This document shows, one piece after another, positions 8,901 through 33,938 of a stretch of DNA of 33,938 nucleotides. Under the pieces are notes generated by a model. The model was not told where the DNA came from, made no database searches, and saw nothing but the letters and a program-made list of their open reading frames with translations. The stretch is taken from positions 1 through 33,938 of the forward strand of contig JANYHV010000217.1 in the NCBI GenBank assembly GCA_025362195.1. Direction: 5' to 3'. This stretch comes from Fimbriiglobus sp. (GTDB taxonomy: Bacteria; Planctomycetota; Planctomycetia; Gemmatales; Gemmataceae). Within the stretch, counting starts at the first letter, position 1; each line of letters begins with the position of its first letter. The position numbers were made by a program, and so were the translations under genes.

Positions 8901-10402
8901 GGTTCATCGAGTGCCACTTCATCGACGACAAGGTGATGCCCGGCACGCTCATGTACGAGTGCTGCCTGCACACCCTCCGCGTGCTGTTGATGCGCACGGG
9001 CTGGGTCGGCGAGGACGGCGAAGTCGTCTGCGAGCCGGTCCCCGGCGTCCGCAGCCGGCTCAAGTGCCGCGGCCAGGTGCTGCAATCGACGAAGTCCGTG
9101 ACCTACGAGATTAGCGTCAAGGAGGTCGGCTACCGGCCCGAACCGTACTGCGTCGCGGACGCGCTGATGTTCGCCGACGGCAAGCCGATCGTCGAGATCT
9201 CGAACCTGAGCCTGCGGATGAGCGGGCTGACCCGGGACCGCCTCGACCGGACCTGGGACCGGCCGGATGTGGTCCTGGCCACGCCGCCGGCCCGGCACGC
9301 CGACGTGGAGTACGAGGCGAAGCCGGCGCTGTACGACCGCGCGAGGATTCTGGCGTACTCGAACGGCGACCCGTCCGAGGGCTTCGGCGCGCCGTACCGC
9401 GTCTTCGACCAGGACCAGCCGCGTAAGCTGGCCCGCCTACCCGGCCCGCCGTTCCAGTTCGTGGACCGGATCACGGCCGTCACCGGCGAGCCGTTCGTCC
9501 TCGTCGCCGGGGCCGCCTGCGAGGCCCAGTACGACGTGCCCCCGGACGCGTGGTACTTCGGCGAGAACCGCAGCGACCTGATGCCGTTCAGCGTGCTCCT
9601 CGAAACCGCCCTCCAGCCGTGCGGGTGGCTCGCGGCGTACTGCGGGTCGGCGCTGACCAGCCCGACCGACATCTCGTTCCGCAACCTCGGCGGCAGCGCG
9701 ACGCAGTTCCTGGCGGTCACCCCCGGCACCGGCACGCTGACGACCAACGTGACCATGACGCAGGTGTCGAACTCGGCCGGGATGATCATCCAGCACTACA
9801 CGATGCTCGTGACCAACCGCGGCCGGAAGGTGTACGAGGGCACGACGTACTTCGGCTTCTTCGCCGCGGACGCCCTGAAGAACCAGGTCGGCATGCCGGC
9901 GGCGAAGTTGCCGCAGTTCAGCCCCGAGCAGCGCGCCGACCGGCAGTTCAAGGCCGAGAGCCTGCCGACGACCTACCCGTTCCCCGCGCCGATGATGCGC
10001 ATGGTGGACGCGGTCGAGTACCACCCCGTCGGCGGGTCGAAGCACCTCGGCCTGGTCCACGGCCGGATCGCCGTCGATCCGTCGATGTGGTTCTTCGCCG
10101 CGCACTTCTACCAGGACCCCGTCTGGCCCGGCTCGCTCGGCCTCGAGTCGTTCCTGCAACTGGCGAAGTACGTCGCCTTCCAGCGGTACGGCGAAGCCCC
10201 CCGGCACGGCTGGCAAACGGTCGGCCTGAACCGCAAGCACGACTGGGTCTACCGCGGTCAGGTCGTCCCCGGCGACCGCGAAGTGAAAGTCCTGCTCGAA
10301 GTCACCGCCGCCGACGACACCGCCCGCCGCCTGACCTTCAACGGCTTCCTCACCGTCGACGGCCGCAACATCTACCAGATGACCGCGTTCACCCTGGAGT
10401 AA
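2999..10402 (+). CDS. Multidomain lipid synthase KS-CLF-AT-DH-DH (PfaC-like with built-in AT)
   Basis: A 2467-residue iterative fatty acid/polyketide synthase subunit. The ATG at 2999 is preferred over an in-frame GTG at 2990 because GGAG sits 8 bases before it. Domains in order: an active ketosynthase (about 5-440) with Cys190 (DAACASS), His324 (HATGT) and His364 (STVGH); a second, decarboxylase/chain-length-factor-like KS (about 500-960) in which the Cys is Glu703 (CSEESS) and HATGT is AATGS; an acyltransferase (about 1095-1440) with Ser1189 in GQSLGE, where GHSxGE is usual; a Pro/Ala linker with an acidic run at 1642-1649; then four hotdog folds forming two FabA-type dehydratases. FabA motifs are CHFIDDKVMPG (His1973) and AHFYQDPVWPG (His2369). 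The order resembles PfaC, with an AT of the kind PfaB carries inserted between CLF and DH. It acts with the preceding ACP-bearing subunit. No enoyl reductase is present here. Confidence 0.93.
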   Translation: MPAAERVAIVGLAARLPGSGADLDLFWDNVAGGVDCSREVPDGRWLLPPDACRDPRVANPDTVYSTRGYYLDPFDVAAADVGVPADLLAGLDPLFHLVLDVGARAFRSAVTHSLDLRKVGVVLGNICLPTDKASDLAREYLGHRVTRAVGLPPEPRRTHPLNRYVAGLPAGLLAKSLGLGGGTFTLDAACASSIYAIKLACDELLSGRADAMLAGGASRPDCLYTQMGFAQLRALSPSGRCSPFDAAADGLVVGEGAGVFVLKRLTDALKAGDTVHGVLCGAGVSNDMHGNLLAPAKEGQLRAMRSAYGLAGWKPNFPDLIECHATGTPVGDAVEFDSLSELWGEDGWKPGQCVIGSVKSTVGHLLTGAGAAALVKVLLAIRHRARPPQANFAAANPAFRYDGGPLRVATTLEEWDPRRPTLPRRAAVSGFGFGGVNGHLLVEEYVGQTYAGSTASQVLKSKPTAATPSRLMTRLNELITRHADTLGTAVPGTGTDPDLTANGPVAVVGLAAHFGPWRELRAFQEFALGGGHRPDPVPKAAGRLPGDADGPPGFFIEDVDVPLDRFRIPPRELEEMLPQQLLMLKTAAAALDDCKGTAPDAADGDPRTGVFIGLGLDLNTTNYHLRWSAKHKALTTRPPRKREAGTGEAPSFSSAEWPDLLADSVGPALNANRTMGALGSIAASRIARTFHFGGPSFTVCSEESSAARAVELAVRALRAGELDRAVCGGVDLAGDPRAMGANDPQRPYSMSGRAAPLEITSAGVLPGEGAGALVLKRLADAERDGDRVYAVICGVGTASGGSPDGLAPDAAAYASSLVRACADAAIDPTTIEYVEVAATGSPFDDRPEADALAALLQAKPRPVPVTLSAVRGQVGHAGAAGGAAGLIKACLALYQQILPPTIDLAGVRPELNASRARCHSAKAARYWLKEADAPRRAIVAATGVDGSAVHFVLEESLLAVDPVAIIDPTADPERLQPLGARPEALFAVEGDTAADLAGRLAEFTRWIDRVAAGAGVEFLAREWILNAPPAANRRRAVAFVARSGAELREQVAAARDHLAARPESPLPAADGLEVRPALRDRVFYNPQPLTGPIGPGSRGRVAFVYPGSGNQFAGMGRDVAAHWPEVLRRQQAENRRLQSQYAPGLFWAEAIPPTATAKEFLFGQVALGTLTTDLLTGLGFKPDAMIGQSLGESSGLFGLRVWRDRDEMLARIQTSTLFGTDLAPPYDAARAFYHTPRGEGIDWLAGVLAVPADEVRAALPSGGRAYLLIVTTPTECVVGGVRDDVERLAAHFPGKAFLPLAGVTLAHCEAGGPAQEPYRKLHTLPTTPAAGLTVYSGAFARPYKPTPPIAADSITAGLVNTIDFPAVVNNAYRDGVRLFVEVGPGNSATRMIGAILAGRPHLARAVCVARQDGVSLTLRTAAALIAERVPLDMMRLYGGPSPAADHQPPVPPGRPHVRVPVGLISAEAPTAPWLPQAPRPAPKSEPKVAVKPAPELAPEPVAAVAAKEWSDVGFELPPVAAEHDPDVVPLFVAPPGEYDLTPLDVDTPSATPAPAPLPPPRVVSVPALAALAASPVTVGLPAAAAVQWTTTFTPYFEAAAGADAATALAHEAYVNTQARATETVALAAEVKSKLLSQLLGYDDEDDEDDLPETLTMETPGGGSADDSVNRQSPAGVFTPWIGSEPPRSLDTAQCSEFARGKIGDVLGPTFAAIDAFPTRVRLPDGPLMLVDHVRSIEGVPLSMTSGRVVTDHAVHADRWYLDAGRCPVSVTVEAGQADLFLAGFLGVDLHTKGLAVYRLLDAVVTFHRGLPKVGETIVYDIHVDSFFNQADAWLFRFRFEGSVNGEPVLTMQNGVAGFFTQAALDAGQGIVHTKLDKVAVPGKKPDDWRPFVALPAGSLNDAQVRALQEGDYVTAFGPAFARLPLRNPLRLPAGMVRLLDRVPVVDPSGGRFGLGFVRGVYDIQPKEWFIECHFIDDKVMPGTLMYECCLHTLRVLLMRTGWVGEDGEVVCEPVPGVRSRLKCRGQVLQSTKSVTYEISVKEVGYRPEPYCVADALMFADGKPIVEISNLSLRMSGLTRDRLDRTWDRPDVVLATPPARHADVEYEAKPALYDRARILAYSNGDPSEGFGAPYRVFDQDQPRKLARLPGPPFQFVDRITAVTGEPFVLVAGAACEAQYDVPPDAWYFGENRSDLMPFSVLLETALQPCGWLAAYCGSALTSPTDISFRNLGGSATQFLAVTPGTGTLTTNVTMTQVSNSAGMIIQHYTMLVTNRGRKVYEGTTYFGFFAADALKNQVGMPAAKLPQFSPEQRADRQFKAESLPTTYPFPAPMMRMVDAVEYHPVGGSKHLGLVHGRIAVDPSMWFFAAHFYQDPVWPGSLGLESFLQLAKYVAFQRYGEAPRHGWQTVGLNRKHDWVYRGQVVPGDREVKVLLEVTAADDTARRLTFNGFLTVDGRNIYQMTAFTLE

Positions 10403-10406
10403 CCGG

Positions 10407-10628
10407 CGCGCCAGGAGCGTCAGTGACTGGAGTTCCGTGGCTCCGCCGCAGGCGCGTTAGCCCGACGCGCTAGCGAGGGTCGAACGGTCGAGGACGGTGT
10501 GGGCAGACGACGACACAACCGTCAACGACCCCGAACAGTGCCCTCGACCGTTCGACCCTCGCTAGCGCGTCGGGCTAACGCGCCTGCGGCGGAGCCACGG
10601 AACTCCAGTCGCTGACGCTCCTGGCGCG
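10407..10628. repeat. Giant palindrome, 87-bp arms, filling a convergent intergenic gap
   Basis: Left arm 10407-10493 and right arm 10542-10628 are reverse complements over 87 bp with one mismatch (10424 T against 10611 G), which is a G-U pair in RNA. The loop is 48 bases. The left arm starts 4 bases after the lipid synthase stop and the right arm abuts the nuoC stop, so it takes up nearly all the space between the two convergent genes. The outer part (AGGAGCGTCAG, then GACTGGAG) is shared with the palindromes at 31288 and 33910. The middle carries GGCTCCGCCGCAGGCG, also found at 26909. It probably acts as a bidirectional transcription barrier or 3' RNA stabiliser. Nothing in it codes, and no target-site duplication flanks it. 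Confidence 0.93.
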
Positions 10629-11144
10629 TTACTTGCAGCGGATGCCGTGGTACTCGTCGGGGTACTCGTAGTCCTTGCGGAGCGGGTGGCCGACCCAGTC
10701 GTCGGCCAGCAGGATGCGGCGCAGGTCGGGGTGGCCGGCGAAGACGATGCCGAACAGGTCGTACACCTCGCGCTCCTGCCAGTCGGCCGTCGCCCAGATT
10801 TTGCACAGAGTCGGCAGGACCGGCGTGTTCTCACGCGGTAGGGTCACCTTGAACGTGAACCGGCGGCCGGGGATGGCGAACGACGACACGTGGTAGACGA
10901 CTTCCAGGTGCGGCTCGAACCCGGCCTTGGCGAGCTTCTTCGGGTCGGTTTCCAGGTAATCGACGCCGGTCACGTCGTTCAGCACGGCGAAGTTCATCCG
11001 CGGGTCGTCGCGCAAGAACGCCGCCACCTCGGCCAGTCGCGCCGGCTCGACGACGACGAACGGGTCGTGGGCGTCGGCGTTGCCGTAGAGAATGCCCGAA
11101 CCGAACTCGGTTTGCAGTGTCTGGATCGTGTCGGCGGCGGTCAT
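10629..11144 (-). CDS. nuoC: NADH-quinone oxidoreductase subunit C (30 kDa subunit)
   Basis: A 171-residue protein of the complex I 30-kDa subunit family, part of the hydrophilic arm that passes electrons from NADH to quinone at the cytoplasmic membrane. The C-terminal family signature is clear: [12 protein letters not shown], then [10 protein letters not shown] and [10 protein letters not shown]. Length is normal for a stand-alone NuoC, not the NuoCD fusion. The ATG at 11144 is the only sensible start; the ribosome site before it is weak. No other nuo gene is beside it: upstream is a divergent tRNA gene and downstream the convergent lipid synthase. It is therefore separated from the usual nuoA-N cluster, or it is a second copy. 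The family call is firm; whether it is the sole nuoC of the genome cannot be seen here. Confidence 0.95.
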
Positions 11145-11229: not shown

Positions 11230-11302
<73 letters not shown>

Positions 11303-30376: not shown

Positions 30377-31285
30377 ATGCCGTCTCGCCTCGGCCTGCTC
30401 GCCATCGTTCTCGGCTGGCTCGCCGTCACCGGGCACGTCGTTTACCACGACGTGTGGCCGCGGTACTTCGCCGACGCCCCGCCGGGCTTGCAAATCGACC
30501 TGGCCGACGAGGCGACGCAGCAGGCCCCGACCAAGTGGACGATCTACCGCGGCGGCAAGAAGATCGGCACGCTCACCACCCGCATGGAGTACCTCGCGGC
30601 CGACGACACCTTCCGGTTCGTCAACAACTACGGCCGGCTCACCCTCGACGCCGGCAAAAGCGACGGCGTGCTGAGCGTCGAGGCCCCGCGGCTGGTGACG
30701 ACCATCCGCGTCACCCGCACCGGCGAGTTGCGCGAGCAGTCGATGTCCGGCGAACTCCGCGTCCTCCTCGGCCCGGTCGAGATCGGCCACGCGGCGGCGG
30801 AGGTCGAGGGCCGCGTCGTCGACGGGGTGCTGCTCGGCCGGTGCAAAGTCCGCTACCCGATCACCGCCGCCCAGCCGACCATCGACCGCGAACTCGACCC
30901 CGTCCCCGTGCCGGCCGGGCAGGTGCTCAACCCGATGATGCCGTTGAACCGGCTGCGCGACATTACGCCCGGCCGCCGGTGGGTCATCCGCGAGGTGGAC
31001 CCGCTCAAGGACGCGCTGGCCGTGCTCGGCCAGGAACTCGCCAAGGGGGCGAAGTTGAACATCGCCCTGCCCCAATCGGCGTCCGGGGCGGAACTGATCG
31101 CCGAAGTGCAGAGCGGCACCGAAGACTACCCCCTGCGCGTCGGCCAACCGGTCCCGTGCCGGGTCATCGTCTACCGCGGCGAGCGCGTGTCGGCCCGCAC
31201 CTGGGTGAGCGCCGCCGACGGCCGCGTCATGCGGCAAGAAGCGACCGCCGGCGACGAGACTTTGCGCTTCGACCGCGACGACTAA
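30377..31285 (+). CDS. Membrane-anchored hypothetical protein
   Basis: A 302-residue protein that I do not recognise. It starts with a hydrophobic helix (LGLLAIVLGWLAVTGHVVY) that probably stays as an anchor, since no cleavage box is evident. The rest is beta-rich and polar: IYRGGKKIGTLTTRMEYL, then ELRVLLGPVEIGHAAAEVEG, then paired strands up to the C-terminus (RVMRQEATAGDETLRFDRDD). This layout recalls lipoprotein-like or DUF-type outer-layer proteins that read or carry lipids, but that is only an impression. The ATG at 30377 has GGAGG 6 bases upstream. The ABC exporter genes follow 102 bp later on the same strand, separated by a terminator-like palindrome. Confidence 0.85.
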   Translation: MPSRLGLLAIVLGWLAVTGHVVYHDVWPRYFADAPPGLQIDLADEATQQAPTKWTIYRGGKKIGTLTTRMEYLAADDTFRFVNNYGRLTLDAGKSDGVLSVEAPRLVTTIRVTRTGELREQSMSGELRVLLGPVEIGHAAAEVEGRVVDGVLLGRCKVRYPITAAQPTIDRELDPVPVPAGQVLNPMMPLNRLRDITPGRRWVIREVDPLKDALAVLGQELAKGAKLNIALPQSASGAELIAEVQSGTEDYPLRVGQPVPCRVIVYRGERVSARTWVSAADGRVMRQEATAGDETLRFDRDD

Positions 31286-31287
31286 CG

Positions 31288-31372
31288 CCCGGCGAGCCAG
31301 GAGCGTGAGCGACTGGAGATCGAACCACCTCCAGTCGCTCACGCTCCTGACTCGCCGGGTGCCGCAATTTTT
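31288..31372 (+). terminator. Palindromic repeat with U-tract, terminator of the 30377 gene
   Basis: Arms 31288-31318 and 31329-31359 are reverse complements over 31 bp with one mismatch; the loop is 10 bases. It begins 2 bases after the stop codon, and AATTTTT follows the right arm by 6 bases, so it should terminate on the plus strand. The core AGGAGCGTGAGCGACTGGAG is a variant of that in the 10407 palindrome; one base (C there, G here) has changed together with its partner in the other arm. Confidence 0.85.
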
Positions 31373-31387
31373 CACACGAGGCCCACA

Positions 31388-32134
31388 ATGATCGAAATCA
31401 CCGGCGTCACGAAGCGGTACGGGCCGAAGGTGGCCGTCAGCGACTTGAACCTGAGCGTGCCGGACGGGGAGCTGTTCGCCTTCCTCGGGCCGAACGGGGC
31501 GGGCAAGACGACGACCATCAAGATGCTCTGCGGCCTGCTCTTCCCGACCGAGGGGACCGTCGAGATCGGCGGCTTCGACATGCGCACCCAGGGCGACGAG
31601 GCCCGGCACCTGGTGAGTTACGTCCCCGACCAGCCGTTCCTGTACGAGAAGCTCAGCGGCCGGGAGTTCTTGCAGTTCACGTGCGACATGTACCGCATGG
31701 ACCGCGACCACGCCCGCCAGCGCACGGCCGAGGTCATCGAGACGTTCCACCTCGGCGAGTTCGTGGACGACCTGACCGAGCGGTACTCGCACGGCATGCG
31801 GCAGCGGACCGTCTTCGCCGCCGCCCTGGTCCACGAGCCGAAGTTGCTCATCGCCGACGAGCCGACGGTCGGCCTCGACCCGAAGTCGATCCGCGAGTTG
31901 AAGGTGCTCCTCCGCCGGCTGACCGAGGCGGGCACGACGGTCTTCCTGTCGACGCACACCCTGGACATCGCGCAGGAACTCGCCGACCGCATCGGCATCA
32001 TCGACCGCGGCCGGATGCTCGGCCTGGGCACGATGGCCGACCTGCGGACGCAGGCGGCGATGGACGGCAGCCTCGAAGACCTGTTCCTGAAGATCACCGA
32101 AGGCGTCGATACCGCCGCGGGGGTGCCGGCGTGA
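31388..32134 (+). CDS. ABC transporter ATP-binding protein (ABC-2 exporter type)
   Basis: A 248-residue ATPase that powers the membrane partner encoded next. Walker A is GPNGAGKTTT with Lys40, the Q-loop Gln is Gln82 (DQPFLYEKLS), the signature is SHGMRQ (134-139, a variant of LSGGQ), Walker B ends in Asp157-Glu158 (LLIADEP), and the switch His is His190 (STHTLD). This is the CcmA/DrrA/NatA-like group that serves ABC-2 exporters. The ATG at 31388 has GAGG 6 bases before it. Its stop overlaps the start of the permease gene (GTGA), so the two are made together. The cargo is not visible. Confidence 0.95.
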   Translation: MIEITGVTKRYGPKVAVSDLNLSVPDGELFAFLGPNGAGKTTTIKMLCGLLFPTEGTVEIGGFDMRTQGDEARHLVSYVPDQPFLYEKLSGREFLQFTCDMYRMDRDHARQRTAEVIETFHLGEFVDDLTERYSHGMRQRTVFAAALVHEPKLLIADEPTVGLDPKSIRELKVLLRRLTEAGTTVFLSTHTLDIAQELADRIGIIDRGRMLGLGTMADLRTQAAMDGSLEDLFLKITEGVDTAAGVPA

Positions 32135-33909
32135 GCGACTTGCCCCTCGAAGCCCTCGAAGCCCCGCCGGCCCGGACGCGCGAAGTCGTCGTGCCGAGTG
32201 GCCGCACGTTCACGCCGGACGACCAGGCCGGCGTCTTCCGCCGCCTCCGCTACCGGCTGTCCGTCAACGGCCTGCGGACCGCGTGGGAGTCGGGCAAGGT
32301 CAAGCTCATTTCGGTCCTCGGCACGTCCTTCCTCGTCGCCGCGTTCGTCTTCGGCCTGAGCTGGTACGGCATCGACCAGATGTTCAAGTTCAACGTCCCG
32401 GCCAAGGGGTTGATCGTCGGCGGGCTGTTCGACCTGATGTTCTTCGCCCTCGGCGGCATGTTGATCTTCTCCACCGGCATCATTCTCTACGCCAGCCTGT
32501 TCACGGCCCCCGAGGCCCGCTTCCTGCTGTGCAGCCCGGCCCGGGCCGACCGGGTGTTCGCCGCGAAGTTCCAGGCGGCCGTGGGGTTCAGTTCGTGGGC
32601 ATTCCTGATCCTCGGCGTGCCGATCCTCGTCGCCTACGGCATCGTCGCCGGGGTGCCGTGGTACTTCTACCCGCTACTCCCGCTGTACCTGCTCGGGTAC
32701 GTGCTGCTGCCCGGGTCGGTGTCGGCGATGTTCTGCCTGCTCTTCGTCCGCTTCGCGCCGCGCAACCGCCGGCAGGCTCTGATCGTCCTCGGCGCGGTCG
32801 GGGTGGCCGTGCTGGGCGTCTGGGTGATCCGCCTCGGGGCGGCGACCCGGGCGACCGTCCTGACCACCAAGAAGAACGAAGTCGAGGGCCTCATCGGCCA
32901 GTTCGCGCTGCTCCAGTCGCCGGTCACGCCGAGCCACTGGATGACGAACGGGATCATGGCGGCGGCCCGCGGCGAGGTGATGAACGCCCTCGTGCCGCTG
33001 GGGATGCTCTGGACCAACGGCCTGATGCTGTACCTCGGGGCGGCGCTGCTGGCCAAGCAGTTCTACCGCACCGGGTACGACCGCGTCGTCGGCGGCGGGC
33101 GGGGCAAGAAGGTGTACCGGGCGAACGCCCTCGACCGGGTCATGGAGTGGTCCGTCTTCTACCTCGACAAGCCGACCCGCGTCCTCGTCGTCAAGGACTT
33201 CCGCACCTTCCGCCGCGACCCGACGCAGTGGGTCCTCTTGAGCATATTCGCCGGGATGCTGTTCCTGGGCGCGTCGAACTACCGGGCCATCATCAAGAAC
33301 GACCTGGCCGTGCTCGACCAGTACGTCATCAGCCTGGTCAACGTGTCGGCGACGTGCGTGCTGCTGTGCGCCGGGCTGAGCCGGTTCATCTTTCCGCTGA
33401 TCAGCCTGGAGGGCCGCAAGTTCTGGATTCTCGGCCTGATGCCGGTGAAGCGGGAGCAAATCTTGCGCGGCAAGTTCTTCTTCGCGGCGACCGTCTCGAC
33501 CGCCTTCGCCGAGACCCTGACCCTGGTCAGCGACCTCCTCCTCGGCCTGCCGCCGGGGGCCATCGCCGTTCACCTGCTGACCGTCGGCGTCGCGGCCGTT
33601 GGCTTAAGCGGTTTGAACGTGGGCCTGGGCGCGTACTTGCCGAACTTCCGCGAGACCGACCCGTCGAAGATCGTCGTCGGCTTCGGCGGGACGATGAACA
33701 TGATGCTCGGCCTACTCTTCCTCGTCGTCGTCGTCACCCTGATGGCCGCCCCCGTCCACGCGGCCGGCGTGGCCAAGGGGTACGGCGTCAACCCGGACCT
33801 GCCGACGTGGTCGTACCTCGGCGTCCCCCTGGGCCTCCTCGCCGGCGTCGCCGCCGTCGTCCTGCCGATGCGCGCCGGCGCACGCTCCCTCAACGCAACG
33901 GAGTTCTAA
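32131..33909 (+). CDS. ABC-2-like membrane exporter subunit
   Basis: A 592-residue integral membrane protein with about 10-12 hydrophobic helices, partner of the preceding ATPase. A 60-residue soluble N-terminus precedes the first helix (ISVLGTSFLVAAFVFGL). A longer loop with RVLVVKDFRTFRRDPTQW lies mid-protein and is the part likely to face the ATPase; the motif KDFRTFRRDP is typical of large ABC exporter permeases. The C-terminal half repeats the layout of the first. The start is GTG at 32131, overlapping the ATPase stop. It is about twice the length of a classic ABC-2 permease, so one copy may supply both transmembrane halves. It stops right at the next palindromic repeat. Confidence 0.88.
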   Translation: MSDLPLEALEAPPARTREVVVPSGRTFTPDDQAGVFRRLRYRLSVNGLRTAWESGKVKLISVLGTSFLVAAFVFGLSWYGIDQMFKFNVPAKGLIVGGLFDLMFFALGGMLIFSTGIILYASLFTAPEARFLLCSPARADRVFAAKFQAAVGFSSWAFLILGVPILVAYGIVAGVPWYFYPLLPLYLLGYVLLPGSVSAMFCLLFVRFAPRNRRQALIVLGAVGVAVLGVWVIRLGAATRATVLTTKKNEVEGLIGQFALLQSPVTPSHWMTNGIMAAARGEVMNALVPLGMLWTNGLMLYLGAALLAKQFYRTGYDRVVGGGRGKKVYRANALDRVMEWSVFYLDKPTRVLVVKDFRTFRRDPTQWVLLSIFAGMLFLGASNYRAIIKNDLAVLDQYVISLVNVSATCVLLCAGLSRFIFPLISLEGRKFWILGLMPVKREQILRGKFFFAATVSTAFAETLTLVSDLLLGLPPGAIAVHLLTVGVAAVGLSGLNVGLGAYLPNFRETDPSKIVVGFGGTMNMMLGLLFLVVVVTLMAAPVHAAGVAKGYGVNPDLPTWSYLGVPLGLLAGVAAVVLPMRAGARSLNATEF

Positions 33910-33938
33910 CCCGGCGAGCCGAGAGCGCCAGCGACTGG
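33910..33938. repeat. Third copy of the AGCG-CGACTGG repeat, cut by window end
   Basis: Directly after the permease stop codon begins CCCGGCGAGCCGAGAGCGCC and then AGCGACTGG, closely matching the left arms at 31288 and 10403. The second arm lies outside the window. Confidence 0.7.

Follow-up and report, generated by a model that had tools for sequence, protein, structure and literature searches.

What are the hairpins that stand directly behind stop codons in the genome of Fimbriiglobus sp., a member of the planctomycete family Gemmataceae? The question is raised by a stretch of 33,938 nucleotides (the window, which is the whole of contig JANYHV010000217.1, here C445:1-33938), in which a sequence-only reading had noticed copies of a palindrome at 10407, 31288 and 33910, each just after a stop codon. 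We propose that these hairpins are REPINs, that is, non-autonomous inverted pairs of repetitive extragenic palindromic (REP) units spread by a REP-associated Y1 HUH transposase, and we consider this explanation very probable. It draws on the hairpin of the single unit, recognized by comparison, on inverted doublets, on placement at 3' ends, on the presence of these units on the flanks of transposase genes of relatives, on the co-divergence of REP and enzyme, and on one pair of filled and empty sites.

Hairpin units in the window and in the host genome

All three copies are present where the sequence-only reading placed them. The copy at 31288 follows a forward-strand stop codon (TAA, 31283-31285) and forms a single palindrome at 31288-31359, with 31-nt arms that are 97% complementary around a 10-nt loop. 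It consists of two inverted 25-nt units, GCGAGCCAGGAGCGTNAGCGACTGG, separated by 14 nt; the left unit lies on the forward strand (31292-31316; foot GCGAG, loop GTGA) and the right unit, with one change (GCGAGT), on the reverse strand (31331-31355). We call units of this type family A. The RNA fold of this palindrome is very stable (z -12). The element at 10407 stands behind a forward-strand TAA (10400-10402), which is followed by CCGG from 10403, and is composite: 10407-10628 has 94-nt arms that are 96% complementary, and the fold of 10400-10635 has a z of -25. Family-A units form its outer arms (10406-10430, forward strand, foot GCGCG; 10605-10629, reverse strand), and a longer second palindrome, family C (10431-10604, with GCGTTAGCCCGACGCGCTAGCGAGGG), is nested between them. 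Sequence related to family C is also found on the flanks of Y1 transposase genes at other places in the genome (loci L033 and L034), and there are many similar places in the sister genome G001. The copy starting at 33910, behind a forward-strand TAA at 33907-33909, contains a truncated forward-strand unit (33914-33938); only half of the element is present, since the contig, and hence the window, stops there. Both arms at 31288 contain the exact core shared by the copies, as does the right arm at 10605-10619; one mismatch each is seen in the left arm at 10416 and in the copy at 33924. With up to three mismatches the core is matched 15 times within the window, compared with a mean of 6.0 and a maximum of 12 in shuffled sequences. 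We also considered a known Rfam family for the hairpins and rejected it: a scan of the window at gathering thresholds gave only a tRNA gene (11230-11302), which lies about 600 bp from the composite palindrome.

The sequence-only reading had taken these copies for members of a dispersed hairpin family, and the genome-wide counts support this. The exact core occurs 112 times in the host assembly (5.66 Mb, 509 contigs, 87% complete), compared with no occurrence of the reversed pattern, and 25 inverted core pairs with spacers of 4-34 nt were found, compared with none in the control. We then surveyed units in a 240-kb sample of 64 segments, made up of the surroundings of 98 of the 112 core places (leaving out two on contig C427 and 12 others), the window and four transposase loci. 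In this way, we identified 116 units within five mismatches of the consensus, and none in the shuffled control. The foot is GCGAG in 102 of the 116, with the remainder scattered, and the loop is GTNA in 113. Units lying within 150 bp of each other were grouped into 73 elements, including 36 simple inverted doublets; the two arms of the 10407 composite were counted as two of the 73. Because the loci were found through the exact core, diverged copies are under-represented in this sample, and a comparison of conservation between singlets and doublets is confounded in the same way. Seventeen of the 73 elements lie within 60 bp of a contig end, where 0.8 would be expected; contigs break at these palindromes, for example C12, C52, C71, C147 and C445.

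The REP unit consists of the foot GCGAG, a stem (CCAG-GA-GC / GC-GA-CTGG) with a tandem mismatch, and the loop GTNA. Among the 116 units of this genome, positions 6-25, 7-24, 8-23, 12-19 and 13-18 are paired in 97-98%, position 9-22 in 66%, and positions 10-21 and 11-20 in 2-3%, mostly showing GA opposite GA. At 8-23, A-T and G-C co-vary (Fisher p 1.2e-6). One sub-type of this genome, CCGG-AA-GC-GTCA-GC-GC-CCGG, has AA opposite GC, as does the unit at locus L160 of a relative. To this we added a stem comparison of 23 hand-chosen units with an 8-nt arm, 22 from 20 transposase loci of relatives and one a variant from this genome. It left out the loci with a 9-nt arm (L110, L114, L116, L117, L124, L130, L131, L154), L111, L119, L129, L138, L139 and near-duplicates, and kept the row of L137, which is one base out of register. 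Over eight pairs, 91.8% of the cells were paired, compared with 64.1% after shuffling (none of 500 shuffles as high); both sides had changed at seven of the eight pairs (12 of 500 shuffles as high); and the covariation was 0.594, compared with 0.150 for shuffled and at most 0.234 for slid versions. Since many of these units came from a search pattern that fixed the foot, the loop and two inner pairs, the evidence rests on the outer pairs. By comparison, then, a short foot-plus-hairpin unit has been maintained through compensatory change.

The sequence-only reading had seen compensatory change elsewhere, in the GTC/GAC pair of the first copy and the GTG/CAC pair of the second, and had concluded that the long hairpin is kept. 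The paired change is real, but the base concerned lies in the GTNA loop of the single unit. The arms of a dimer agree at this base in 25 of 39 cases, compared with a mean of 15.1 after permutation (p 0.0004), and differ in the other 14. This is above chance but not strict, and we rejected selection on the long hairpin as the conclusion from this change. The agreement fits doublets that were amplified as subfamilies, so that selection on the long hairpin is not required; nine of the 39 doublets have identical arms. The better compensatory evidence is the stem of the single unit across relatives.

Transposases flanked by the units in relatives

A link to a REP-associated tyrosine transposase (RAYT) had been put forward as a check, and it was found in relatives. 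In genome G007 of the same family, a transposase gene is directly followed by family-A units. Its protein, used as a query at E ≤ 1e-5, matched 60 of the 95 family genomes, counting distant matches. The closest enzymes (L106-L109), which are 64-66% identical to the query, have family-A units on both sides, as do L159 and L166 from named metagenome-assembled genomes (MAGs); at L105 the units lie downstream, and the contig begins at the gene. Seven distinct loci of relatives therefore carry family-A units, six on both sides together with L105 (L155-L158 are the same loci as L107, L109, L106 and L105). L159 pairs two sub-types, GCGAGCCGGGAGC and GCGAGCCGGAAGC, which resembles the mixed doublets of the Fimbriiglobus genome. 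L160 carries a stem variant, and its transposase frame has a stop; in-frame stops make the transposase genes of L160 and L146 appear to be decaying. At L105, L106, L108, L109 and L113 the transposase ends in GEP or GEPGA, apparently encoded by the adjoining REP, so that repeat and gene end overlap. The gene beside the G007 transposase (L079, from about 835) we take to resemble a CRISPR type III RAMP protein. Another 29 Y1 loci, from six relatives (L075-L104 except L079), showed no family-A unit.

All nine members of this transposase group that were tested match Pfam Y1_Tnp at E ≤ 1 (best E 1.3e-7), and all nine match the NCBIfam RAYT equivalog NF047646 at the same threshold (best E 3.4e-12), the first member scoring 34.6 bits, under the curated cut-off of 80. 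In 23 proteins of relatives, the residues H103-x-H105, Y165 and Q170 (HxH and Y----Q) do not vary. The structure alignment does not include L160, whose frame has a stop. A sequence search against known structures returned only IS200-type proteins (2f4f, 2ec2). The best fold match of an AlphaFold2 model (pLDDT 87) was 4er8, the structure of a REP transposase in complex with a REP hairpin (E 4.4e-5, TM 0.46/0.51; 10% identity over the aligned part), followed by IS200/IS605 transposases.

We also looked at the loci beyond family A. The family-A query is the best match for 47 transposase loci, 24 of which have a GCGAG/GTNA unit within 400 bp; such generic units number 83 in 35 kb near the 47 genes and one in 75 kb farther off, the pattern having been derived from some of the loci later counted. 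When 17 of the remaining 23 loci were inspected by eye, without a control and leaving out the other six, all 17 showed other palindromes with a YGAR foot (CCGAG, CTGAG, GTGAG, GCGAA). L135, which is best matched by another query, showed no shared flanking repeat. A scan of named genomes kept 80 of 94 confirmed loci, nearly all labelled Planctomycetota and two labelled Chloroflexi; the latter (L164, L215) come from two MAGs and point to either transfer or mis-binning. Two or more YGAR-foot hairpins, with both orientations represented, lie within 420 bp at 41 of the 80 loci, and none at 19; the units number 216 in 61 kb near the genes, compared with 63 in 107 kb far from them. This filter misses family A itself because it requires near-perfect stems.

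Next, we compared the divergence of REP and enzyme. Over 38 of 50 relative loci, each represented by one hand-chosen unit, protein and REP distances are correlated (Mantel r 0.59; none of 10,000 permutations as high). On a tree of 41 of 52 proteins (without L135-L137, L140, L141, L144-L147, L149 and L151), nine stem groups need eight changes, which is the minimum, compared with a shuffled mean of 22.7 (none of 200 as low). Ten rows of the tree fall in no stem group and its bootstrap had not settled; the family-A group has a support of 81/87, group G is weakly supported, and group D taken alone is split and needs three changes. Relatedness of the genomes contributes to both measures. Judged from these sequence comparisons, REP and transposase diverge together.

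Mobility, placement and alternative explanations

If the hairpins are mobile, then filled and empty sites should be found among close relatives. The 31288 locus is preserved in the sister genome G001 at 85-87% nucleotide identity, with orthologous genes, and the palindrome is missing there between the stop codon and the ABC-transporter gene. Given that G001 has nine exact cores (reversed control one) and the other congener, G002, none, insertion of the 31288 element in the Fimbriiglobus genome is the simpler reading. No target duplication is evident in this one filled/empty alignment, in which the flanks have diverged. A further comparison with G001, at contig C250, gave no result since most of the matches came from one repeated coding segment; this segment (L040:3302-3611) has about 40 related places in G001, and our guess is a repeated domain such as a protein kinase.

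The distribution of the units is patchy. Full units number 58 in this genome and one and none in the two congeners. All five family genomes with an enzyme at least 64% identical (or equal) to that of G007 carry family-A units (G007 7, G115 102, G080 79, G034 20, G028 11), compared with at least one unit in 34 of the other 90 family genomes. Thus, where the enzyme occurs units are present, but units do not need it now. Across the phylum, the pattern GCGAGC-N5-GCGTNAGC has a match in 82 of 294 genomes, a draw that held few family members, and as a generic pattern it fits 8-nt arms only. It occurs 213 times in the Fimbriiglobus genome (control one), and among the others a clear excess is confined to several genomes of its class (G367 124, G348 26, G209 23, G307 12).

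Several of our results weigh against the REPIN explanation. Profile and protein searches found no cognate family-A transposase in the fragmented assembly of this genome, which leaves the link to a transposase established in relatives but not here; the nearest proteins there are the two enzymes of family C, with an identity of about 33-34%. No family-A transposase turned up between the widely spaced unit pairs of the genome either. Unit counts are high in G084 (304), G066 (170), G073 (77) and G029 (76), none of which has an enzyme closer than about 42%, that of G029 being broken by a stop; copy number thus does not track the presence of the gene, and assembly gaps alone are insufficient to explain a missing enzyme because G073 has only four contigs. 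For the Fimbriiglobus assembly, a gene lying between two near-identical palindromes may well drop out. The empty site is a single one and could instead have arisen by deletion in the sister. For the 10407 element the comparison gave no result, as its flanks are on separate contigs and the gene order differs. Folded as single-stranded DNA, the family-A unit has little stability (-4.0 kcal/mol, z -0.95), so that support for its hairpin is comparative. The fold match to 4er8 is modest, 23 of the 47 transposase loci carry no GCGAG/GTNA unit, and that pattern's partial origin in the counted loci counts here too.

The missing enzyme raises the possibility that family A was moved in trans by the other Y1 enzymes of the genome. 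The assembly has four Y1_Tnp matches at E ≤ 0.1 and no others, two above the family cut-off and two below: L031 and L032 (contigs C319 and C61), flanked by GTAG-type repeats, and L033 and L034 (contigs C155 and C465), flanked by long family-C palindromes. That they are the only such genes, and that a family-C palindrome sits inside the family-A element at 10407, fits action in trans. However, each carries its own, different repeats, no family-A unit lies within six mismatches at any of the four loci, and REP and enzyme co-diverge elsewhere. We therefore regard this alternative as rather unlikely.

Could the hairpins instead be functional RNA elements at 3' ends, long hairpins that protect or terminate upstream transcripts and are kept for that purpose? 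Their placement is certainly strong. With 222 genes called by a simple codon-usage method, 33 of the 73 elements lie -5 to 20 bp from a stop codon, compared with 8.2% of 5000 random intergenic positions. For the narrower range of -5 to 10 bp, the figures are 21 of 73 and 5.8%, which bears out the proposed enrichment just downstream of stop codons; the three window copies are closer to stops than most elements. Only three of the 73 lie inside a gene, compared with 78% of random positions. Both neighbours are known for 47 elements: 19 of these stand between convergent genes, 23 between genes in the same direction and five between divergent genes, compared with about 21%, 52% and 27% of random intergenic positions. 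The very stable RNA fold of the 31288 copy and a TTTTT at 31368-31372, 8 nt after its palindrome, would also suit such a role.

However, T-runs of at least four follow only three of the 41 hairpins (7%) that a gene reads into, compared with 2.4% at random intergenic positions (binomial p 0.07), and occur on three of 78 doublet sides. There is no clear excess, and we rejected an intrinsic terminator as the main role. The element is also missing from the orthologous 3' end of the sister, its copy number falls from 58 full units to one and none in the congeners, identical arms are found in the doublets counted above, and REPs in general are placed alike, as far as the available passages of PMC3733652 describe. 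The idea of a dedicated 3'-end element, raised by the sequence-only reading, is thus not upheld and appears improbable to us; a mobile repeat that is tolerated at 3' ends fits better. Least probable by far is a classical miniature inverted-repeat transposable element of a DDE insertion sequence, with terminal inverted repeats and target duplications: the hairpins are dispersed inverted repeats of about 72 bp, but in relatives it is Y1 HUH genes that family-A units flank, a covarying stem is present within each unit, and the single filled/empty alignment, with its diverged flanks, shows no evident target duplication.

We return to the REPIN explanation. If events resemble those in E. coli and Pseudomonas, the transposase would bind a single unit that has folded while the DNA is single-stranded, probably at replication forks; the foot would position the cut, and the doublet would be moved or copied to a new site. 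Selection would then leave copies where they do least harm, mainly just behind genes. Cleavage, strand transfer, the mode of copying and the past action of a cognate enzyme in this genome are presumed here.

Relation to known systems and significance

The resemblance to REP elements and bacterial interspersed mosaic elements, which had been noticed from the letters, is supported by the inverted doublets, by their extragenic position and by transposases flanked by family-A units in relatives. The family is best filed as a REPIN family, known as a kind, whose transposase resembles a little-described 'class 3' group. As far as the available part of PMC3116915 describes them, REPINs or REP doublets are likewise inverted, closely spaced, extragenic and linked to a Y1 transposase, here in relatives. 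The differences are the foot GCGAG, the failure to find the cognate enzyme in the genome itself, and a strong 3'-end bias, whereas the doublets described there are randomly distributed in extragenic space. The class 3 TnpA_Y1 proteins, according to the portion of PMC6006769 available, have a Y----Q motif, occur mainly in Planctomycetes and are flanked by hairpins that sometimes reach high copy number; these enzymes and their repeats were described from 24 proteins and manual inspection. The HUH and Y----Q motifs are present in the 23 proteins of relatives, and the feet CCGA and CTGA beside L115, L118, L125 and L129 agree with the CnGA given there, whereas family A has GCGA(G). The present analysis adds a definition of stem and loop, covariation and co-divergence, and protein matches in 60 of 95 family genomes compared with the 24 proteins there.

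Two other groups of REPs are similar in part. GTAG- and CGTC-tagged REPs, as presented in the accessible text of PMC3733652, are also tagged short palindromes with inverted dimers placed behind genes, but neither GTAG nor CGTC is among the 12 commonest feet of the 116 units. The E. coli REP has an imperfect stem with a conserved AA-GC mismatch, as reported in the accessible text of PMC8266576. AA opposite GC in a sub-type of this genome and in the L160 unit, together with the fold match to 4er8, recalls that system; the foot is another one, the outer stem has 4 bp and the identity to 4er8 is 10%. No description of the family-A unit was met in the parts of the open-access literature that were read.

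A broader proposal can be made tentatively, and we judge it to fall a little short of probable. The hairpins may belong to a third REP superfamily, centred on Planctomycetota, with a YGAR foot and its own transposase clade, in which the foot (and often the GTNA loop) is retained and compensatory change replaces the stems in step with the enzyme. Family A, as one branch, would then have arrived independently at the mid-stem mismatch (AA/GC or GA/GA) that E. coli REPs are known for. Several genomes, among them the Fimbriiglobus genome, would keep large family-A populations although no cognate enzyme is detectable, the units being orphans or moved in trans.

The fragmented planctomycete assembly breaks at these palindromes. 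Enzymes related to class 3 are common in one planctomycete family, which offers dozens of natural enzyme-hairpin pairs. With these pairs, it becomes testable how an HUH transposase reads foot, mismatch and loop, and so does the persistence of REPIN populations after the enzyme has been lost.

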